Assembly: GCA_025526915.1 (NCBI GenBank)
Contig: JAHLKH010000093.1
Location: 34,102 to 98,101, forward strand
DNA length: 64,000 bases
From: Entophlyctis helioformis
Taxonomy: Eukaryota; Chytridiomycota; Chytridiomycetes; Chytridiales; Chytriomycetaceae
Direction: 5' to 3'
Shown: positions 52,744 to 63,188 of the stretch, piece by piece
Layout of the letters: each line of letters begins with the position of its first letter
Position numbering within the stretch: position 1 is the stretch's first letter
The notes under the pieces: generated by a model
The model's input: only the letters and a program-made list of their open reading frames with translations
Databases searched by the model: none
Told to the model about the DNA's origin: nothing
Made by a program: the position numbers and the translations under genes

Positions 52744-52973
52744 GGCTGTAAGAGAGTGGTTGAATGAGGGGTGGGCAATAGGGCGAGGGAATGCCGGCAA
52801 ACCGCCGGCAAATGGCCCGACATTCAAACAATTACCAAGCGTTTTGGAATTGGATTCGTCGCAAGAGGCGTCGAATGCAAGCCAGCACATCACACGATGG
52901 AAGGTTCGAGTCAGCAACGAGCATGCGACGACAGGCGGGCGAGGCACATCCACATGCATGAGGGTCTTACCTT

Positions 52974-52994
52974 TCATTATTATTGAAATAATGA
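52974..52994 (-). other. AT-rich hairpin just beyond the Fanzor stop codon
   Basis: A perfect 8-bp inverted repeat (TCATTATT / AATAATGA) with a 5-nt loop, 15-35 bases downstream of the Fanzor stop at 53,009. It sits in an AT-rich patch that contrasts with the GC-rich surroundings. It could be a transcription end signal, the transposon right end, or part of a guide (omega) RNA, which in TnpB/Fanzor loci overlaps the 3' end of the gene. Confidence 0.45.
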
Positions 52995-53008
52995 TGTGAT
53001 AAGTGACC

Positions 53009-56000
53009 CTATTGGTCGATCAGGAGGTGCCCTGATTCAAAGTGTTGGTAGTCAAACAAGTCACTGTGTGGGATGCAGGTCAAGTGACTTGAGGGCAGGC
53101 TGTCTGCGTGCTGGTCACTGCTGGATGACGGATGGACCGTGTCTTGAACGCTGCTGTACAGCACGTCTTGAATACCACAGGACGGCAGCATGATCTGGTC
53201 CCATGAGGCCACATGTGACTTGAAGGGAAATGGAGCACGACTTGCACGCTCCTGGATGTCAGCCTGCATTCTTGCAATGCCTGCAAGGTACTCTGTCGTG
53301 GCTGGATCGTCACAGGCTGGCGTGTGCGTCAAATAGAGCGGTCGTTGTCCATAGAGCAGATGCCACAGTGCGACCATCCCGATGTTGGTGGCACCAAGCA
53401 CGTCTCGGTGGTAGACGGTCTCGCAGTCTGTGCACTCGTAGCGTCGCAGGTTGGTGCGGTTCTCATATGGGATCCGCTGCTTGCACTGCGGGCACATCTG
53501 GCTGGTCAGGTTCTCGTTGCAGCGGTAGATCTGTGTGTGTGTGTGTTCATGATCGTGTGGTCAGTTGGTGCACAGATGGATGGATGGATGGACAGCGTGG
53601 CATATCCAGACGCACATAGGCATATCCAGACGACCGCAGATGCCTGATGAGAAAGTTCTCAAACACAGCGTGCCGGCCACCTTGGCCTGTAAAGTCAATG
53701 CCAAATGCCCAGACAACAGGAATGTCCTTCTCTGTTGGCTTGTCACAGCGGCCTTGAGACGCAGCAGATGCGCGCTTCCAGTGGTCGATCCTGCCAGCTT
53801 CATGATGCCCTCAAGAGCGTTTCCGCGAATAGACATGCTGTTGCTGCGCTTGGTGAACCGCTTGGCCTTGACCTTCTGTGGAATGCCATGCCATGCCATC
53901 CAGTGCATCAGCAGGCATCAAGCAGCATGGCGGCCATGCAATGGGCATCCAGAAACAGAGAAAACATACCCGTGCATTCAGGAATGGTGTGCAGTACGCA
54001 TGGCAGCGCAGATCCCAAAAGGCTCTCTCGCCAGGCTTGACGTTTGGATCGGCATGCTTTGCTGTCTTGAATGCAATGGCCGCCTGGATGTCGGATGCCT
54101 TGGCATATCGATTGTTGAGCCTGGCACAAGAGGCAGGCACTGTGAGTTGATCTGGTCAAGAGTGCGTGTGGCAGAGTCATTGCATGCATACCACCGCTGA
54201 AAGATGCGCTCAGCATGTGCCATGCCAGAGGAGAGCACGTAGTTGGACTCGAGCTTATACGAAAAGTCTCTGAGATCAACCAAGATGCTGGACGCGCCAT
54301 ACAGGTACCGCTGGCCCCAATCAAAGCTGACAACGCGAACAGTCTGGTAGCCCTTGTTGGTGAACAGGTTGTTGGCTTTGATGATGTCATGCAGTCGCTG
54401 TGAGGCGTAAAAGTTGCGCTTGCCCTGTCATGCCATGGCATGAGTGAGGAATGTGGAATGCATGTGCACCAATGCGCGAGTTTAGCATGCAAGTGGCTTA
54501 CAGGATTGGGCGTGTATGGCTTGGTGGCTGACGGGTTGGCTGGATTGGCGGCTGTGGATGGCATGTCAGTCGGTGTGGACAACAAGTGCGCGTCTGGATT
54601 GGCACAGCAACTCACATGTGCCATCAAGGCCATCATCCAAGCCATCATCCAAGCCATCATCCAAGTCATCGTCATCATGAGCAACCCACGGCTGCTCGCC
54701 TGAAGACATCAGATTGGAGTATGCAGAGCAAGGCAGCAGTCAAAATCCATGTGTGCACCAAAGCATTCAAGCATGCCACATACAGCAAGGCGACTCTGGA
54801 CGGTTTGTGCAAAAGTCCAACACTGTCTGGCAGATGCTGTATCCATCGGTCTTGATGCTGCCTAGTCTGACTGCCTTGGTTGGTCGTGCTGGTGGCAGAG
54901 CATCAATCGCAGCCTGAATGTGCTTCTTGCGCTGCTCATCATCCAGCTTGAGACAATCAGCTTTGAGCATTGCCATGGCTGTGGCATCTGCTTTAGCCTG
55001 GGCATTAGCTGTGTCCATCTCTGTCTTGGCCTCAGCTGGCGTTTGGAAGCGACGTGTATCCGAGGCGAGTCCAGGGAGGAGGATGTCGAGGATGGCCAGC
55101 TCCTTGCTTTTGCTGAAGGCCTTCTCAATTGGGTCATTTGGCAACTTAAGGGCCAACTCGGCATCATTGTAGCCTTGGAACACAGTGCAGTGTTAGCATC
55201 AAATGGCATTGGCATGGCATAGACAAATGTGACCTACCAAGTGCAGCCAGGAGCTGCTCTCTCAGTGCTTGGAGGACAGCATTGTCCTTGGTGGGTACGC
55301 GATCCTTCTTTGTCCCCATCACAGCCCAAAAGAGGGTGGCCTCTGTGATGAGGACAAAGGGGTCGCAGCTGGCTGGCTCTGGGCATAACTTGATGGCTGT
55401 GCCACCTGCAAGATCACAGAGCTCCTTGAACTTACAAATGTCCGATGTTGACATGCTGCGCACAATCGCCTGAATCAGATGCAGCTCTTGTGGGATCTCG
55501 ATGGTGTCCCCATCCTGTGTGGCTGGTGGTGTGGCTGCGAGGCATCTGTGGCAGCAGTCTTGTCCTTTGGCCTCTTGGATGTGCTGCCATCAGTGGCCAG
55601 CAGCAGCTGTGATGCAGTCCGCTTGAGACTCAGGGCAGGAGGAGCGACATCCTGGGCAGCGTCCTGGGTGGCGTCCACACTCTCTTGGTTGTTGATGGGC
55701 CCCTTGCACCTTGCTCTCTTGCGTGTCGGTAGGCTGGATGCAGTGTCCATGGCAGCAGTGCGCTTGGCGACCTTGGTGGTCTTGACTGGCTTGAACATGG
55801 CATTGACCCATGCCGCAATCTGCTCGGAAGTTGCAGTGGGCATCGCACGGTGGGCCGCAATCGACACGAGCTTCGACCGGCTTGAGATAAAGTGTGTAGC
55901 AAGTGTGCTGCTCACCTCCCTTGCCAGGTTGCTGAAGATCTGGTGGTCGCAAGCCCGCACAAGGTGTTGACAAGCCGTAAGGCACAGCTGCCTGCTGTGT

Positions 56001-56986
56001 GTCGGCCTGCTGTGCATCGGCTGGGAGCAAGCTTGCCCACCACATGTCTAGATGCCGCGCACGAGTCTGCTGCTTCTTGGCCGGTCGACGTGCGCCTGCC
56101 TTCATCTCGGCCTTCCGTGTGGTGGTCTGCATTGCGCCTGCCTGTTGCGCATCGCCAGTGTCCATGTCGGCCTTGATCGTGTCAGCTGGTGGTGCAGCTT
56201 GGTTGGTCATGCTGGCCGGCTTCCAGCTGCGGTGGATCATGAGCTGCATAACCGTAACAAGCCATGCGTTGAGCTTGAGCATATCCACCCGTGGCTTGGC
56301 CATCTGCTCGCCTGTAAGGACAAATGAGAGGTGCCGCAGGATGCAGGCTACAGATGTCTGGCCAGCAGACTTGCTGGTGATGAGCATCGACAGCAAGTCA
56401 TTGGGTGTCGGCACTGCTGGTGCTGCTGGTGCTGCTGGGGCTGCTGGCTTCTTGGGCGTCTTGTGCGTCTTTGGCTCGTCAGGCTTCTCAAAGAGACAAA
56501 GCTTGAGTGTCGTTCCTGCTGATAGTTGCACTGGTGACCCAAACGAAGGGAGCTTGCCCTTGCGACTGTACTGACTTTGGCCGTACATCACATGCGCAGT
56601 AATGTCCGTCTTGAGGATGCATGGGCCGGCCATGAGTGCGTTGCCAATGTCGTCAAGGTCCTTGAGGCTATCAAGACTCAGAAAGCAATGCCCGCTCTGC
56701 TCTCCATGGGTCCACTCGTATATGTGGTACATCGGGGGAAGCGGCATGTCCGGGTTCAGATCAAGAAGCTCCTCCAGGATGGCGCCAATTACAATGAGTC
56801 CAGCATGGCGTATGCCGACGGTGAACGAGTAGATCCGCGCGATGATGTCCTCAATGAGTTGGCAGCGTGTCCAACCCATCGGCAACCTGCTTGCATGAAC
56901 ACCAAAGACTGGGGCACTCTGCAGGTGACTTGACAACATGTCCTGCACACCATGCCAGCCTGCAAGTCAGTACATGCAAAGCCATG

Positions 56987-57033
<47 letters not shown>

Positions 57034-58902
57034 AATGGCAATCCTGCCACTTACCTTCAGAAGCACTCGCATGCCAGGATGGTCAGGCATGTCCTCTCCA
57101 TGTTGATCCGGCACGTCCTCATTGTGTTGATCAGATGCATTCCCCTTGGCTTGTTGCACTTTGCCATTGATGGCTGCAGCGAGTGTCATGAACCATCCTG
57201 TGATCGTGCGGCCCAGCTTTTCGAGCTGCAGATGCAGTGCAAATCGACTCCCAGCAACCCATCTGTGGCATAACATGCATGTCAGCAAGCATCTTCAAGT
57301 ATTGCAGTGTGGCATACACAACTTACGTCTTGTCGCTCTCTGATGCAGCTGTTTCAGTCTGGCGGTCTTGCCGGTGTGCACTCTCCTTGTTGTTGTCAAT
57401 GGTCTTGTTGATCACAGCATCTGCAGCTTCCTTTTTGCGGTTCTTCTCGTACGTGGCCTTCCTGGTTGCTGAGAGTAGGAGTTGTGCCTGTTGAGGTCCA
57501 ATGCACCATCAGCATTGTGTGCAATATGTCCAAAATCACAAACAGTGCATGTGGACTGACCGTTGTCTTGTTGTCAGCAGATGGATCAACATACAAGACC
57601 TTGCTGGCAGCCACGCGAGCATGCTCATTGTGGGAGGGGCCAACTGGAGTGGATGCATCCAACTCAGCCTGTTGGATGTAAAATCAGTGACTGTGCAAAG
57701 TCAACACATCCATACACAGCAAGCAAAGTTGAAGACATACAGCAGATCGCTTGAGGATTGATTCCAGAATGGCAACTGCATCTTCCCGCTTCTTGCCAAG
57801 TGTTGACAGATGGAGATCAGGCAGGCCGTGATCCATGGGATGTGTCAGGCGTTCCAGCCACTTCAAAGCCTTGATCTGTATGTCCACAAATTTGGAGAGC
57901 TTCTTCAAAGAGATGCCTGTCCGGTGGTGGTGTCGACTCTTGCATCCACCTTCCAAAAGAGTGGTGCATTCAGACAAATGTGCTGTGAGTACAGAGTGTG
58001 GCATCATCCAACAGCAGTCTCAAAGTACCTGGCGTTGCTGTCTTCCTGAATGGTGGATATGCAAGCTTGTTGAACTGTCTGCGCAGCTTTGATGCAACAT
58101 CCTGTCCAACAAGCAGTGGATGAGTGGGATGTTTCAAGGCAAGGAATGCACATGCATCCAGTCATGCAACAACATACATGTCCATCACGAATGATCTTAT
58201 CTCCTTTGTTGAACTCGGTGTGCATTTCTGCTGCAGGAGACTTCTTGCATACAATCCCAATGAGCTCTGCACTGGCTGTAGTACTGGGCCGCCAGACGGG
58301 CTTGCCGGCTGGTCTCGGGGCAGTGAGTATGCACGCAGGGGAACGGCGGGCAGACGACTGCAAGAACGGGGGAAACCAGAGCGGCCAGTGCGGCCCGACA
58401 ATGTCTGTCCGGTCACGTGGGTCACGTGGATCATGTGGATCACATGACCGCGACCGAGCATCCGTTACACTGGCTGTCTTGCTGATCTCTGCCAGAACGT
58501 TGCGGCCAGTGAATCCATTGGTGTTGCAAGCGACGTGATCTGCTGCGTGTAACAGAACACAGTCAACAGCAACTGGACATCCCTTGACTTGTTCCAGCAA
58601 AGTGTTGAGTCGCTTGGTGTTGATGATGCCTTCGACTTGCTGCTTGACATCTTCCTGGGAGAGATGGACAACATCAGGGCCTTGCTTGCCTTGCCGGGCC
58701 TTGGGGTGAACAAGAATACAGTCGCGATGTAGCCGGCAGCTGCATTGCAATCCAATCAAACACAGAATGCCAAGTCAGTCATACAACACACACCAAGCAA
58801 TGGCATGCATGTGTACCTTGTGGTGGTTGTGCCAACAGCTGTGCTGCTGTCAATGGCATGTAGGGATGGACAGTCAGTAGAGTGTTGTGCATGCAAATGC
58901 AT
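53009..58902 (-). CDS. Fanzor (eukaryotic TnpB-like RNA-guided nuclease) with long N-terminal extension
   Basis: Fifteen exons, all phase-linked: 58902-58817, 58739-58178, 58101-58029, 57982-57741, 57668-57561, 57487-57327, 57262-57055, 56942-55238, 55173-54784, 54699-54616, 54551-54502, 54424-54192, 54120-53970, 53875-53616, 53530-53009. The C-terminal part is TnpB/Fanzor-like: an IKTDGYS segment (exon 55173-54784), RuvC-I Asp in VVSFDWGQR (54,320-54,322), a four-Cys zinc ribbon (CPQC...CTDC, 53,420-53,494), and RuvC-III HRDVLGATNI (Asp at 53,402-53,404). The RuvC-II Glu is not identified. The roughly 1,100 upstream residues are unassigned. Frame breaks: one base missing near 55,521 and 53,748, one extra near 55,991. 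The chain may continue upstream into the XPG-like module. ATG 58,902 is the first possible independent start. Confidence 0.75.
54631..54666 (-). repeat. 12-bp tandem repeat inside a Fanzor exon
   Basis: Three copies of CATCATCCAAGC (plus strand), encoding repeated Leu-Asp-Asp-Gly on the minus strand in exon 54699-54616. The repeat keeps frame and is probably a flexible acidic linker. Confidence 0.75.
56986..57033 (+). repeat. (GGCA)n tetranucleotide repeat in a Fanzor intron
   Basis: Twelve near-perfect GGCA units in the intron between exons 57262-57055 and 56942-55238. Confidence 0.9.
58277..58469 (-). mobile_element. Solo LTR inserted in frame in a Fanzor-chain exon
   Basis: A 193-bp element bounded by TGTA...TACA and flanked by the 5-bp direct duplication CTGGC at 58272-58276 and 58470-58474. 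On the minus strand it starts TGTAACGGATGCTCGG and ends CAGTACTACA, matching both ends of the LTR at 60375-60631. It lacks that copy's internal tandem duplication. The element plus one target duplication is 198 bp, which is 66 codons, so the host exon stays open across it. Confidence 0.88.
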
Positions 58903-58925
58903 CTGTGCCACAATGCCATGACCAG

Positions 58926-60171
58926 TCAAACAAAATCTTGCCTCTGCGCTGGTGCATCACCAGATGGGCTGCTGTGACTGGATGGGGATGTGGTCTCACC
59001 AACAGAGCTTCCTGATTCATCGTGGTGGACAAAAACGCCAAAGGCGTTCAGGAAGCTCTTGGTGAGGGCCACACCACCATCCAGCAACAACAGATCCTTG
59101 CAGTATGCATCCTTGATTGCATTTGCAAATGCAACTGCCTTGTCGCGGTCATGGAGGTGGGCACAGTAGTCGACCGGCTTGATGCCTGCCTTTCTGGCTG
59201 CGGCCTCGACAAACTTGTTGATGAACTTGACAGCGGCAGGTAGACCTTCCATGTCATGGGAGTGGCAATGTGCATTAGTCATCATCACAACATGGATGGC
59301 AAGCAAGAGCAGAGTCATGCAATGAACATACCTCGCCCGTAGCAATCATGATAGTCATTCTTGGCCATGGAGGCGGCCAGCTGACATGCCAGGGGGAAGT
59401 TGTACAACCGTAAGGCTGCTGCAGTAGATGCAGCGCCACTGTAGTTGTACAATCGGACCTGGCTGACATGTCCCTTCTGCATGCATGTCAGGATGACAGG
59501 GCAGCATCCAGTACAATGCACAGCCAGGTCCGAGTCCCCAGCAATGACAGCCATTGGCATGCCATTGCTGGGATGCAGGTTGTCAGCCATTGATCATAAA
59601 CAACAGATACCATGGTGATGAATACCTTGGCTCGCGTGCATAGAAGGCAGCCTTGCGGGCGATGCAGACATCAGACTCGTTGTCACACTGATGGACAGTG
59701 TGTTGCGACGATGGGCCAAGGATTGCCGCGATTGCCTCAGCAATGTTCTTCTTGTCTGACCGTGTAAGAGTGAAGGAGCCAAGTAGTGCCTTTCTCTCCT
59801 TCCTGCAGCATCAACTAAAAGTTAGAATCATGTGTATGAAGCACAAAGAGGCAGACATACCAAGACAAACGTCCAGACCGTCCATGCTTGCGGCGCCAGT
59901 AGATGGATCGCTGGATGGCAGCCACTGATTGAAGTACTCGAAGAGCACGGCTGCTATATGCGCGCTTGATTCCCGTCTCGGCAAGCCTGCCATCGACATG
60001 GAACTGTAGGACCCGCCCGTCACCGACCGACTTGAGAAACGTCTTGAGAACAGGTGCAACGATTGTCACCCACTCATCAACAGACGACGGCCGGTGGAAA
60101 GCGGCCAGCCCACGTAGCGGTCCGTAGAAGATGCTCAGTGCATCAACATGTATGACACTGGATGCACTCAT
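58926..60171 (-). CDS. XPG/FEN1-like (PIN superfamily) 5'-nuclease module
   Basis: Exons 60171-59861, 59802-59626, 59567-59332 and 59245 to the TGA at 58926 give about 350 residues. Acidic positions of the XPG/FEN fold are visible: HVDALSIFYG at the N-terminus; VLQFHVDGRLAETGIKRAYSSR, like the N-region Asp-Gly with basic residues; CDNESDVCIARKA, like the internal EAEA block; and AVIAGDSDLAV (59,528-59,536), like the SxDxD block. These enzymes cut flap or branched DNA, or act as RNA nucleases. The TGA at 58,926-58,928 directly follows an A/T run. Adding one base there keeps the frame open into the following Fanzor exons with natural sequence, so this may be the N-terminus of one fused protein. 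The 5' end may be cut by the retrotransposon LTR. Confidence 0.68.
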
Positions 60172-60374
60172 GTGTGGTTGCAGTGGTGGTGGTGGTCGTG
60201 GCGGTTGTGGTGGCAGTTGTATCCGAGGTGCCGGTAGAAGGGCTGGCCGCTGGTGCAGAGGAGGTGGCAGCGTATACAGCCGACGGAAAGCTGGTGGCCG
60301 CAGAGGTGCTGGTGCTGTCAGAAGCGACGGCAGATGGGGTAGAAGAGGTGGTGGTGGCAGCAGAGGAGGCAGTG
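60172..60374 (-). other. Ser/Thr-rich coding-like stretch between the XPG-like module and the LTR
   Basis: On the minus strand this is an open, Ser/Thr/Ala-rich frame running up to the LTR border. It reaches the XPG-like start one base out of frame (near 60,172). It looks like the interrupted N-terminal extension of that protein rather than a promoter. Confidence 0.4.
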
Positions 60375-60631
60375 TGTAACGGATGCTCGGTCGCGGTCAC
60401 GTGATCCACGTGACCCACGTGACCGGACAGACATCGCCCGGCCGCGTCCCCCGCTCTGGTTGCCCCCGTTCTTGCAGTCGTCTGCCCGCCCTTCCTCGCG
60501 TGCATACTCACTGCCCCTGCAACCAGGTCCGTGCTTATGTCTCAATGAAGTCGTCTGCCCGCCCTTCCTCGCGTGCATACTCACTGCCCCTGCAACCAGC
60601 CGGCAAGTCCGTCTGGCGGCCCAGTACTACA
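60375..60631 (+). repeat. 5' long terminal repeat with internal tandem duplication
   Basis: A 257-bp repeat, TGTAAC...CTACA. It contains a 50-bp segment present twice (about 60,478-60,527 and 60,549-60,598) with a 21-bp spacer, which accounts for most of the extra length over the solo LTR at 58277-58469. E-box-like CACGTG repeats lie near its start (60,398-60,424). Confidence 0.85.
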
Positions 60632-60728
60632 GCAAGAACCCCCCTTTCGACGCCGTCGGCCGCCGTTCCCCGCCGCCGTCGATCGATTTTTCCGTCGATT
60701 TTTCCGTCGATTTTTCCGTTTTTTTCGG

Positions 60729-63188
60729 ATGGCCGTCGAGCATTCGCCCAGGGCCTCGGCTCACTCAGCCGCCGCCCCCTCGGGCACCGACCAGGACCTC
60801 CTCGGCGAGGCCTCGTTCGATACGGCCCCCTCGTTCATTGATGCCACCCCCTTAAGGTTCCAGCGCCGCCTCGACCCTGCGGGTACGTCGTCTGTCTTGA
60901 TGGCCGACTCTGCTCTGGGCGTGTCTTTTAGCGCCTCAGCGGCGCACCGCCAATCCTCGGCCGACCTGTTGGGCCGCCACGATGCGGGTTCCGGTCGGCA
61001 CCAAGAGGCGTTCCTCTCCAGCACGCCGGCCGCCCAGCCGGGCGCCGCAAGCCGCCCTGAGCAGCCTGGCACCACAGTCGATGACTACATGATTGCGGAG
61101 CTGGCACGCCTTGGCACGGTGACATTGGACACCGGCCGCGCACTCAAGGCGACCACATCATCTGCGGCCGCTGCCCACGCAGCCCTCAACGATCTGCGGC
61201 TTCAGCTGCAGTCGGACCGCGACATGGCCGCCAGGCAGGCCGAGGCCTACTCCAATGCCATCCAGCTCCACCACCAACGCATGGTGGCACTCTTTGACTC
61301 CGTCGAGGCCAACTCAGAGGCCATACAGGGCTTGCAGAAGAGCGTCGCCAACACGTCGGAATCCGTGATCGCACTGGAGCAGGCCCTCTCAGATGCCGTC
61401 GCCAAGGCCACCAGAACGGCAAACGCCGCGTTGGCGCAGGCCTCAGCCACAGCCGCCCAGCAGACTGCGCATTCGGTCCAGGCGCTTGGGTCCTCGGTGG
61501 ACTCGCGTCCGACCCTCGCGTCTGGATCCTCGGTGGATGCCCGCAGCCCTGCCAAGCTGTTTGCAGACAACCTGGGCAGCAAGCTTGTGCCATTCCAGGG
61601 CTTTGTGATGGTTGAGGGTTCGATGGACGTCGATTGGACGGCCACCCACGCGGCTTTCAAGCCGTTCGCCCTCGCCATCGAGATGGCTTATGGCAACACC
61701 TGCGAGTCGCTGTCATGCACCTCGATTCCCATGCCGCGGATCTTTGGGCAGCTCCTGAATGCCTTCCAGGGAGCCGCGCTCCAGGAGGTCACCACCTGGT
61801 ACATCGACAACAAGGCCGACGCCTTGTCGTTCACATTCGACACGTTCCTCGAGCACCTCCGGTCGACTTACACGCACCAGGACTCGGCCCGGATCAGCGC
61901 CAAGGCCAAGCTTGCCTCTGACTTCCCGCCGCTGTCGTGCCACGGCTGGGCCCCCCAGGACTGGGTACCCCGCGCGGAGGCGCTGTTCAAGGTTGCCGGC
62001 CACTCGGAGCAGCTCAAGATCGACTTCATCCTGGGCCGCCTCAAGGCGACGCCCTCGGAAACGTTCTCCTCGTACGCGGCCATCCGGGATTACCTCATGG
62101 CCCTGCACACGCGGAAGGCCAACCACAAGCAGTCAACCGCGCTGGCCACTGCTGAGGCAGCCGCCGCCAAGGCCCTCGAGCCCAAGTCGAAGCCCAGCCC
62201 GAGCAAGACGGCTGCCACGCCGCCGCGTTCTTGGAGCTCCTCATCGCCCAAGGCTGCCACCCCTGCGCCCTCTGGCAACAACAGCGCGTCTGAGACACGT
62301 AGGGCTGCCTCGCCCGCTGCGACAGCCGACCATGCCAGCCGATCGCCTAGCCAGCGCCCGCCCCACTCTAAGGTCGGGCGCATCGCGGCAAAGGCCAAGG
62401 CACCCGGGTATGTTCGCTCGCCCCCTCTGGCTCCTCCTGCCCCTGCGGCCAAGCACGCTTCGGCGGCTAAGCCTGCAGCCGTGCGTAAGCCCAATGCTGA
62501 CACCGAACCTCCATTGGTCCCTGCCCGTGACGACGGCGCACCAGCAATGGCTCCGGCTCGCGGTCGCTCGAAACCGTCTCGTCGTTCTCAGACGACGGGA
62601 CCCAGTACAGCGACGCAGACGAAGAAGAGTGACCCTTTGGGCGGTGTTGCGAATAAAAAGATGCCCTCTGTGGCCCCTGATCACCCTGTTTGTCCTGTGT
62701 TGCCGCCGTCGCGACTGAAGGAGGGGCACCTGGCTCCTGTGAAGCCCATCACAGAGAACCGGTGCACCTTCCCTGTCTTCTTAGACAATCGCAGCGCCAG
62801 CGTCCTGGTGGACACTGGCAGCAGCGCGAATCTAGTGGCTCGCCATTGGTTGGATGCCAATGGCCTGCTCGCCGCTGCCCGGCCGTTCACCCGGCAGGCG
62901 GTGACTCTCGAGTTTGCCAACGGCAACTTGCAGAGACTAGATTCGGAGGTCTACCTCACGCTGGCCGACAGATCAGCTGCGGTCAGCCAGGTGCGGTTCC
63001 TTGTCTACGATGGTGTGGATGATGTCATCCTGGGCATGCCATGGCTGCGCACCACCGCGGAGGCGTCATTCAACTTCCGTCGCAGTGTTTTCCGCTTCTC
63101 AACCGAGTCGCGCCCCCGATGTGCACCACATCTGGCAGCATGCGGACGCTCTGCCGTCTGCTGTCCCCCACCACCGGCCGCACTCTGA
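60729..63188 (+). CDS. Retrotransposon Gag-protease polyprotein
   Basis: An 819-residue ORF from the ATG at 60,729. The N-terminal 90 residues are Ser/Pro-rich and a coiled-coil region follows (about 110-260, with IALEQALSDAVAKATRTANAA). A capsid-like domain holds LQEVTTWYIDNKADALSFTFD and SFDTFLEHLRSTY-type helices. A basic Ser/Pro/Ala region comes next; no CCHC zinc knuckle is seen. The C-terminal 150 residues form an aspartic protease: VLVDTGSSANLV (catalytic DTG), then VDDVILGMPWL. The ORF ends shortly after the protease while the downstream frame is +1 relative to it, with overlap from 63,001. Confidence 0.85.
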   Translation: MAVEHSPRASAHSAAAPSGTDQDLLGEASFDTAPSFIDATPLRFQRRLDPAGTSSVLMADSALGVSFSASAAHRQSSADLLGRHDAGSGRHQEAFLSSTPAAQPGAASRPEQPGTTVDDYMIAELARLGTVTLDTGRALKATTSSAAAAHAALNDLRLQLQSDRDMAARQAEAYSNAIQLHHQRMVALFDSVEANSEAIQGLQKSVANTSESVIALEQALSDAVAKATRTANAALAQASATAAQQTAHSVQALGSSVDSRPTLASGSSVDARSPAKLFADNLGSKLVPFQGFVMVEGSMDVDWTATHAAFKPFALAIEMAYGNTCESLSCTSIPMPRIFGQLLNAFQGAALQEVTTWYIDNKADALSFTFDTFLEHLRSTYTHQDSARISAKAKLASDFPPLSCHGWAPQDWVPRAEALFKVAGHSEQLKIDFILGRLKATPSETFSSYAAIRDYLMALHTRKANHKQSTALATAEAAAAKALEPKSKPSPSKTAATPPRSWSSSSPKAATPAPSGNNSASETRRAASPAATADHASRSPSQRPPHSKVGRIAAKAKAPGYVRSPPLAPPAPAAKHASAAKPAAVRKPNADTEPPLVPARDDGAPAMAPARGRSKPSRRSQTTGPSTATQTKKSDPLGGVANKKMPSVAPDHPVCPVLPPSRLKEGHLAPVKPITENRCTFPVFLDNRSASVLVDTGSSANLVARHWLDANGLLAAARPFTRQAVTLEFANGNLQRLDSEVYLTLADRSAAVSQVRFLVYDGVDDVILGMPWLRTTAEASFNFRRSVFRFSTESRPRCAPHLAACGRSAVCCPPPPAAL

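Follow-up and report, generated by a model that had tools for sequence, protein, structure and literature searches.

We analyzed a 64,000-nt stretch of DNA (hereafter, the window; C93:34102-98101) from the chytrid Entophlyctis helioformis (Chytriomycetaceae), together with the 29.57 Mb of this genome (482 contigs) that were searched. The minus strand of the window carries a damaged transposon copy, whose predicted gene links an XPG/FEN-like nuclease module to a RuvC nuclease module of the TnpB/Fanzor kind. A previous reading made from the letters of the window (the sequence-only reading) had drawn this gene as a minus-strand chain that starts with an HVDG/GDSD module (60171) and finishes with a zinc ribbon of the Fanzor type (53009), and this chain is borne out both by a match to the Pfam family PF07282 and by splice sites that are largely common to four other genomic copies. 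The same reading treated the locus as a single-copy gene, a view that has to be given up, the gene being part of a high-copy transposon.

Gene structure and the predicted intron joining the two modules

The exon model relies on the borders common to the window and the four genomic copies aligned with it (C2, C50, C121 and C6), whose splice sites lie mostly in identical alignment columns; the model of a simple gene finder was dropped because it split too many exons and ran past the stop codon. The relatives support 19 exons and 18 introns rather than the 18 exons and 17 compatible introns first proposed, the added intron being the one that spans a TGA codon between the two modules (Table 1). 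More specifically, the 19 exons of copy C2 are all compatible in phase and form an open frame of 1,871 residues in unedited DNA.

The joint between the modules was studied in an alignment of 25 sequences, i.e. the window and 24 copies picked, non-randomly, for subfamily coverage. A splice donor (58941/58940 in the window) lies 13 bases before the TGA and occupies one column in all 25 copies, with GC in 21 of them and GT in four; the donor hexamers are GCAAGT (19 copies), GTAAGT (three), GTATGT (one), GCAAGA (one, the window) and GCAAGC (one). This count was made without requiring an AG acceptor. When an acceptor is required, an in-phase open path from the XPG-like module through exon 5 to the Fanzor-like module is found in 21 of the 25 copies, 19 of which use a shared acceptor place, the remaining two (C395 and C5) using another AG upstream. 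Many copies retain a branch-like CTGAC motif together with an AG downstream of the TGA, and six further close copies carry the donor and the TGA of the window. In addition, the deposited partial protein P0003 reads GDAPAQSSTAVGTTTTSCRLHRDC at the joint, i.e. it is already spliced across this intron. Two other donors, at 58999 and 58960, combined with an acceptor before 58838, would also skip the TGA in phase but are lacking in divergent copies, and were rejected.

The TGA itself had been ascribed to a lost base or sequencing slip. This does not fit the genomic copies, 18 of which have TGA at this column, the others having CGA (four) or TGG (three). As judged from the alignment, the TGA at 58928-58926 is an intronic triplet. 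Thus, the proposal of a single XPG–Fanzor gene stands, on the grounds of the conserved splicing, the intact copy C2 and the P0003 model, while the missing base invoked to justify it falls away, the TGA being predicted to lie within the intron.

Table 1. Coordinates of the gene, of the transposon right end and of the inserted repeats in the window (LTR, long terminal repeat).
Feature	Coordinates	Strand	Basis or remark
XPG/FEN-like module, exons 1–4	58942..60171	-	borders common to C2, C50 and others; acidic residues; Ka/Ks
Exon 1	60171-59861	-
Exon 2	59802-59626	-
Exon 3	59567-59332	-
Exon 4	59245-58942	-
GC-AG phase-2 intron joining the modules	58847..58941	-	95 nt as in P0003; 98 nt with the next AG
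TGA, predicted intronic	58926..58928	-	alignment of 25 copies
Exon 5, small linking exon	58817..58846	-	spliced frame in copies and P0003
Linker and middle part, exons 6–12	55238..58739	-	alignment with other copies
Exon 6	58739-58178	-
Exon 7	58101-58029	-
Exon 8	57949-57741	-
Exon 9	57668-57561	-
Exon 10	57487-57327	-
Exon 11	57262-57055	-
Exon 12	56942-55238	-
Exons 13–19	53009..55173	-	PF07282; motif test; alignment
Exon 13	55173-54784	-
Exon 14	54699-54616	-
Exon 15	54551-54502	-
Exon 16	54424-54192	-	RuvC1, DWG
Exon 17	54120-53970	-
Exon 18	53875-53616	-
Exon 19	53530-53009	-	alternative glutamate, zinc ribbon, final D; TAG stop
3' flank of the gene and transposon right end (...GCCCACCCCTC)	52766..53008	-	candidate guide RNA place
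Solo LTR in exon 6 (TGTAACGG...TACTACA)	58277..58469	-	flanks GCCAG 58474-58470 and 58276-58272
Second copy of the exon-6 LTR, inverted, bordering the element where its left side is truncated	60375..60636	+	copy comparison

Note that introns 14–17 (within 54615-53876) display a mean pairwise identity of 0.94–0.96, compared with 0.72–0.90 for exons 14–17 (22 copies), which reverses the usual pattern; the introns before intron 14 are far more divergent (five copies). The high identity of introns 14–17 may reflect mosaic exchange or an intron function.

The XPG/FEN-like and RuvC modules

FEN1 has seven active-site carboxylates, and seven acidic residues of the N-terminal module (D10, D60, E147, D149, D175, D177 and D235), invariant in all six divergent modules compared, follow their order. 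A profile built from six modules scored 26.6 (E 0.0065) against the EXO1, FEN1 and XPG pieces of the host, compared with a maximum of 21.8 in 100 column shuffles, at a probability of just 5.8%. The module is under purifying selection: the ratio of non-synonymous to synonymous divergence (Ka/Ks) of its exons is 0.12 between C2 and the window, 0.18 between C2 and C50, 0.27 between C2 and C121 and 0.17 between C50 and C121, Ks being saturated in the last three pairs, and ranges from 0.28 to 0.63 in the other exons. The name XPG given to this module in the sequence-only reading is upheld at the level of motifs and residue order and not at the level of Pfam families, all XPG models of which score under their cut-offs. 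On this basis, we consider it probable that the N-terminal module is XPG/FEN-like.

The C-terminal module matches PF07282, the C4 zinc-ribbon family, with 41.7 bits for the window piece and 42.4 bits for the C2 protein (cut-off 26.3), while the TnpB models match below their own cut-offs. The Fanzor motif defined by Bao and Jurka (2013; PMC3627910), D-X(125,275)-[TS][TS]XX-C4-X(5,50)-RD, is found in C2, where the D of DWG is followed by 188 residues and then by TSQMC..C...C..C...RD. An alternative glutamate (Ealt) is present six residues before the zinc finger (ENLTSQMCPQC). RuvC1 reads DWG in all five sequences compared (window, C2, C121, C6 and P0001) instead of DPG, the form that section 23 of Yoon et al. 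(2023; PMC10711439) gives as near-exclusive in Fanzors. The earlier label of Fanzor has to be qualified, the alternative glutamate being present but not the DPG: because of its DWG, we do not class the module as a strict Fanzor, and its motifs place it among the Ealt TnpB-family proteins with D{Phi}G at RuvC1. By the same motifs, it would work like a Fanzor.

Between the two modules, none of the pieces of exons 6–12 that were tried matched a Pfam family. One scan of prokaryote genomes with the RuvC part and scans of viral sequences with each module returned no relatives.

The transposon, its ends and the damage in the window copy

XPG exon 4 occurs at 142 merged places in the genome (from 149 matches) and the Fanzor end at 167 places, 150 of which are listed. 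For 81 of these 150, an XPG place lies at most 15 kb upstream in the same orientation, with a spacing of 4.8–5.7 kb in 64 of the 81 pairs; among the matches listed, an XPG place is never found downstream of the Fanzor end and is found on the opposite strand in four cases. On the right side, similarity between copies stops at 52766 (...CCCACCCCTC), or at most 3 bases away, in 8 of 10 copies. On the left side, C2, C331 and C57 extend about 3 kb beyond the window copy before similarity stops at a G-run before TAATTGATTTCG. The elements are about 10 kb long, with termini GAGGGG...CCCCTC. With the left end set at GAGGGG, we obtained 12 left/right pairs, which represent 11 independent sites since C14 and C331 have a common flank; the distance between ends is 9.7–10.3 kb in nine of the 12 pairs and longer in C121, C14 and C3. 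Direct repeats of 7–10 bp flank the element at 7 of the 11 sites (C264, C38, C178, C3, C14/C331, C121 and C95; raw count), some of them one or two bases off the element end; the repeat is 6 bp long at C13, and none is present at C103, C1 and C2. The element therefore has the defined ends, the repeated copies and the target duplications of a DNA transposon, and its gene, as read from the genomic copies, is a single spliced coding unit that is repeated and was mobile in the past.

The consensus fold of the right-end alignment has a z-score of -3.8 relative to column shuffles (22 copies, 50 shuffles), which is compatible with a structured RNA without proving one, because 12 of the rows reach into 3' flanking DNA; the right end has no Rfam match.

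The window copy is truncated: on the left it ends at 60374 against an LTR, so that the left-end sequence is not in the window. Compared with C2, it also shows four single-base losses, three in exon 12, where an in-frame stop lies between losses, and one in exon 18, from which the frame is broken onward. Since the frames of exons 12 and 18 are broken, the window DNA does not contain one open frame. In addition, exon 6 carries a 198-nt LTR insert, which is in frame and not present in the other copies compared; the genome holds at least 70 matches to this LTR. The insert in exon 6 and the loss of the left part had both escaped the sequence-only reading. In its assembled form, the window copy very probably no longer works as a gene.

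Several further features of the family were observed. C2, C57, C38 and C1 have in common a left stretch of 0.7–2 kb with opposite-strand readings of unassigned kind, only the outer 0.7 kb of which is matched by C103 and C264. Twelve copies (L037–L048) lose similarity directly after TATCGGGCC, about 50 bp before a right end of the window type (alignment read by eye), which suggests that the same gene end also belongs to another type of element, with a different right end. Next to the truncated side of the window copy, the interval 60375-63188 comprises the LTR followed by a plus-strand open reading frame of 879 residues that contains an aspartyl protease domain (PF13650, E 5.7e-6), and is probably an LTR retrotransposon. 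As in the window, the XPG start is immediately preceded by this LTR in C121 (L052 109-301 and 1708-1900) and in C312 (L007), which may reflect a preference for this insertion site or the duplication of a segment.

Interpretation and comparison with known systems

We favor, with a probability of about 0.8, the view that the window carries a defective copy of a high-copy transposon of about 10 kb encoding one protein, in which an XPG/FEN-like module is connected to a RuvC module of the TnpB/Fanzor kind through a GC-AG phase-2 intron. A number of observations weigh against this view, some of which are taken up with the alternatives below. The others are that (i) 69 of the 150 listed Fanzor places have no listed XPG partner (among the matches listed, contigs also coming to an end); (ii) no transposase was recognized, five exact left-end pieces being without a Pfam match in a non-exhaustive search; and (iii) the guide RNA is a candidate taken entirely from the right-end sequence.

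At the joint, the favored view is weakened by four of the 25 copies being out of frame (C427, C162, C95 (shifted exon 4) and C17 (LTR-interrupted)) and by the deposited paralogue P0002, which ends at the equivalent of the TGA; what is known of splicing here comes entirely from genomic DNA and deposited gene models. The end of P0002 makes retention of the intron possible, and with it a double output, in which retention of the GC-AG intron would yield the XPG-like protein alone and splicing would yield the fusion. Such a double output would be in keeping with the weak GC donor of 21 of the 25 copies, with a stop shortly downstream, and with deposited models of each kind (P0002 and P0003), whereas stops within introns are expected by chance and C82, C224, C40 and C182 are without TGA at its column; we hold it to be a reasonable minority possibility.

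It seems rather unlikely that the fusion is ancestral and that the whole family is now decaying, with no active protein left. The single-base losses and the LTR insert of the window copy point in this direction, as do C50, C121 and C6, whose frames are interrupted under the mapped exon borders (a mapping error may be the cause), but C2 is intact and the low Ka/Ks of the XPG exons (Ks saturated in distant pairs) argues for constraint between copies.

We also doubt that the N-terminal module is an unrelated fold with similar motifs instead of an XPG/FEN nuclease, an explanation that draws on the failure of the module to reach family-level similarity: the modules of the window and C50 have no Pfam XPG match; a search of the genome with the XPG_I and XPG_I_2 profiles has no transposon copy among the matches listed; no PDB sequence matches the module; and a four-module profile reached a probability of 1.3% and was surpassed by one of 20 shuffles, at 1.9%. 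The invariance of the seven acidic residues in FEN1 order and the six-module profile score speak against it, as do the two top Pfam matches of P0002, XPG_I_2 (13.9 bits, cut-off 24.2) and 5_3_exonuc_N, both below cut-off. The AlphaFold model of P0002 has a mean pLDDT (predicted local distance difference test) of 39, a value at which the fold is not predicted.

Finally, two genes in one transposon, the first for a 347-residue XPG-like protein that stops at the TGA and the second an independent Fanzor-like gene behind it (23 bases apart in the fallback of the sequence-only reading), would agree with the TGA counts and the end of P0002, but are very unlikely given that the ATG at 58902 needed by the second gene is found in just 13 of the 25 copies, that the exon-5 frame, read back through the stretch as if it were exon, is closed in 20 of the 25, that the donor column is kept in all of them, that P0003 joins both modules and that no other start was found for a Fanzor gene (not every ATG tested).

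If the fused protein is made, TnpB and Fanzor biology suggests how it might act. A candidate guide RNA would be read from the right end of the element into flanking DNA, the RuvC module loaded with this guide would cut the flank or empty site so named, the element would be kept or copied back at that site, and the fused XPG module would trim flaps, displaced strands or branched DNA after the cut. A bolder version, which we regard as speculative and quite unlikely, casts the fusion as a transposase or homing enzyme that spreads the element by combining the right-end-guided cut with flap processing, the weak GC-AG intron setting the level of fused protein. Were the fusion true, it would represent a natural two-nuclease RNA-guided machine, maintained by purifying selection and present at well over 100 places in one genome, and would offer direct tests of the role of RNA-guided nucleases in transposon persistence and of end processing built into a nuclease protein.

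Protein searches using the two modules as queries returned four matches, all from Entophlyctis helioformis. A further search, at fused length, scored 8,000 candidates in a database whose eukaryote coverage is not established, none of them a relative. A literature search found no publication bringing Fanzor and XPG together (the Fanzor survey DOI 10.1126/sciadv.adk0171 lay outside its scope). Thus, in the literature searched, we found no earlier description of an XPG-like and a Fanzor/TnpB-like module paired in one gene, and PMC3627910, PMC10711439 and PMC10432273, in the parts used here, present proteins with a single RNA-guided nuclease each.

The N-terminal module resembles the FEN1, XPG and EXO1 nucleases in how its catalytic acidic residues are ordered and spaced, and differs from them in scoring below Pfam cut-offs, in being borne by a transposon and in being fused to a RuvC nuclease. 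The RuvC module shares the alternative glutamate and the DWG at RuvC1 with the Ealt TnpB-family D{Phi}G proteins, as section 23 of Yoon et al. (PMC10711439) presents them, but is eukaryotic, intron-rich and fused. With Fanzor1, as portrayed in the relevant parts of PMC3627910 and of Saito et al. (2023; PMC10432273), the system has in common a TnpB-type RuvC, a C4 zinc ribbon, the Fanzor motif and residence in a chytrid DNA transposon. The prototype of Spizellomyces punctatus, a 633-residue protein encoded by a single open reading frame, whose 2.1-kb element has TA duplications (PMC3627910), contrasts with the 1,871 residues, 19 exons, N-terminal XPG-like module, element of about 10 kb and 7–10-bp duplications found here. 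A parallel for the pairing is the viral Mariner element PGv-1, as outlined in PMC3627910, where a second nuclease also accompanies Fanzor in one element; there, the partner is a separate GIY-YIG protein, whereas here it would be an XPG-like module fused to the RuvC nuclease.

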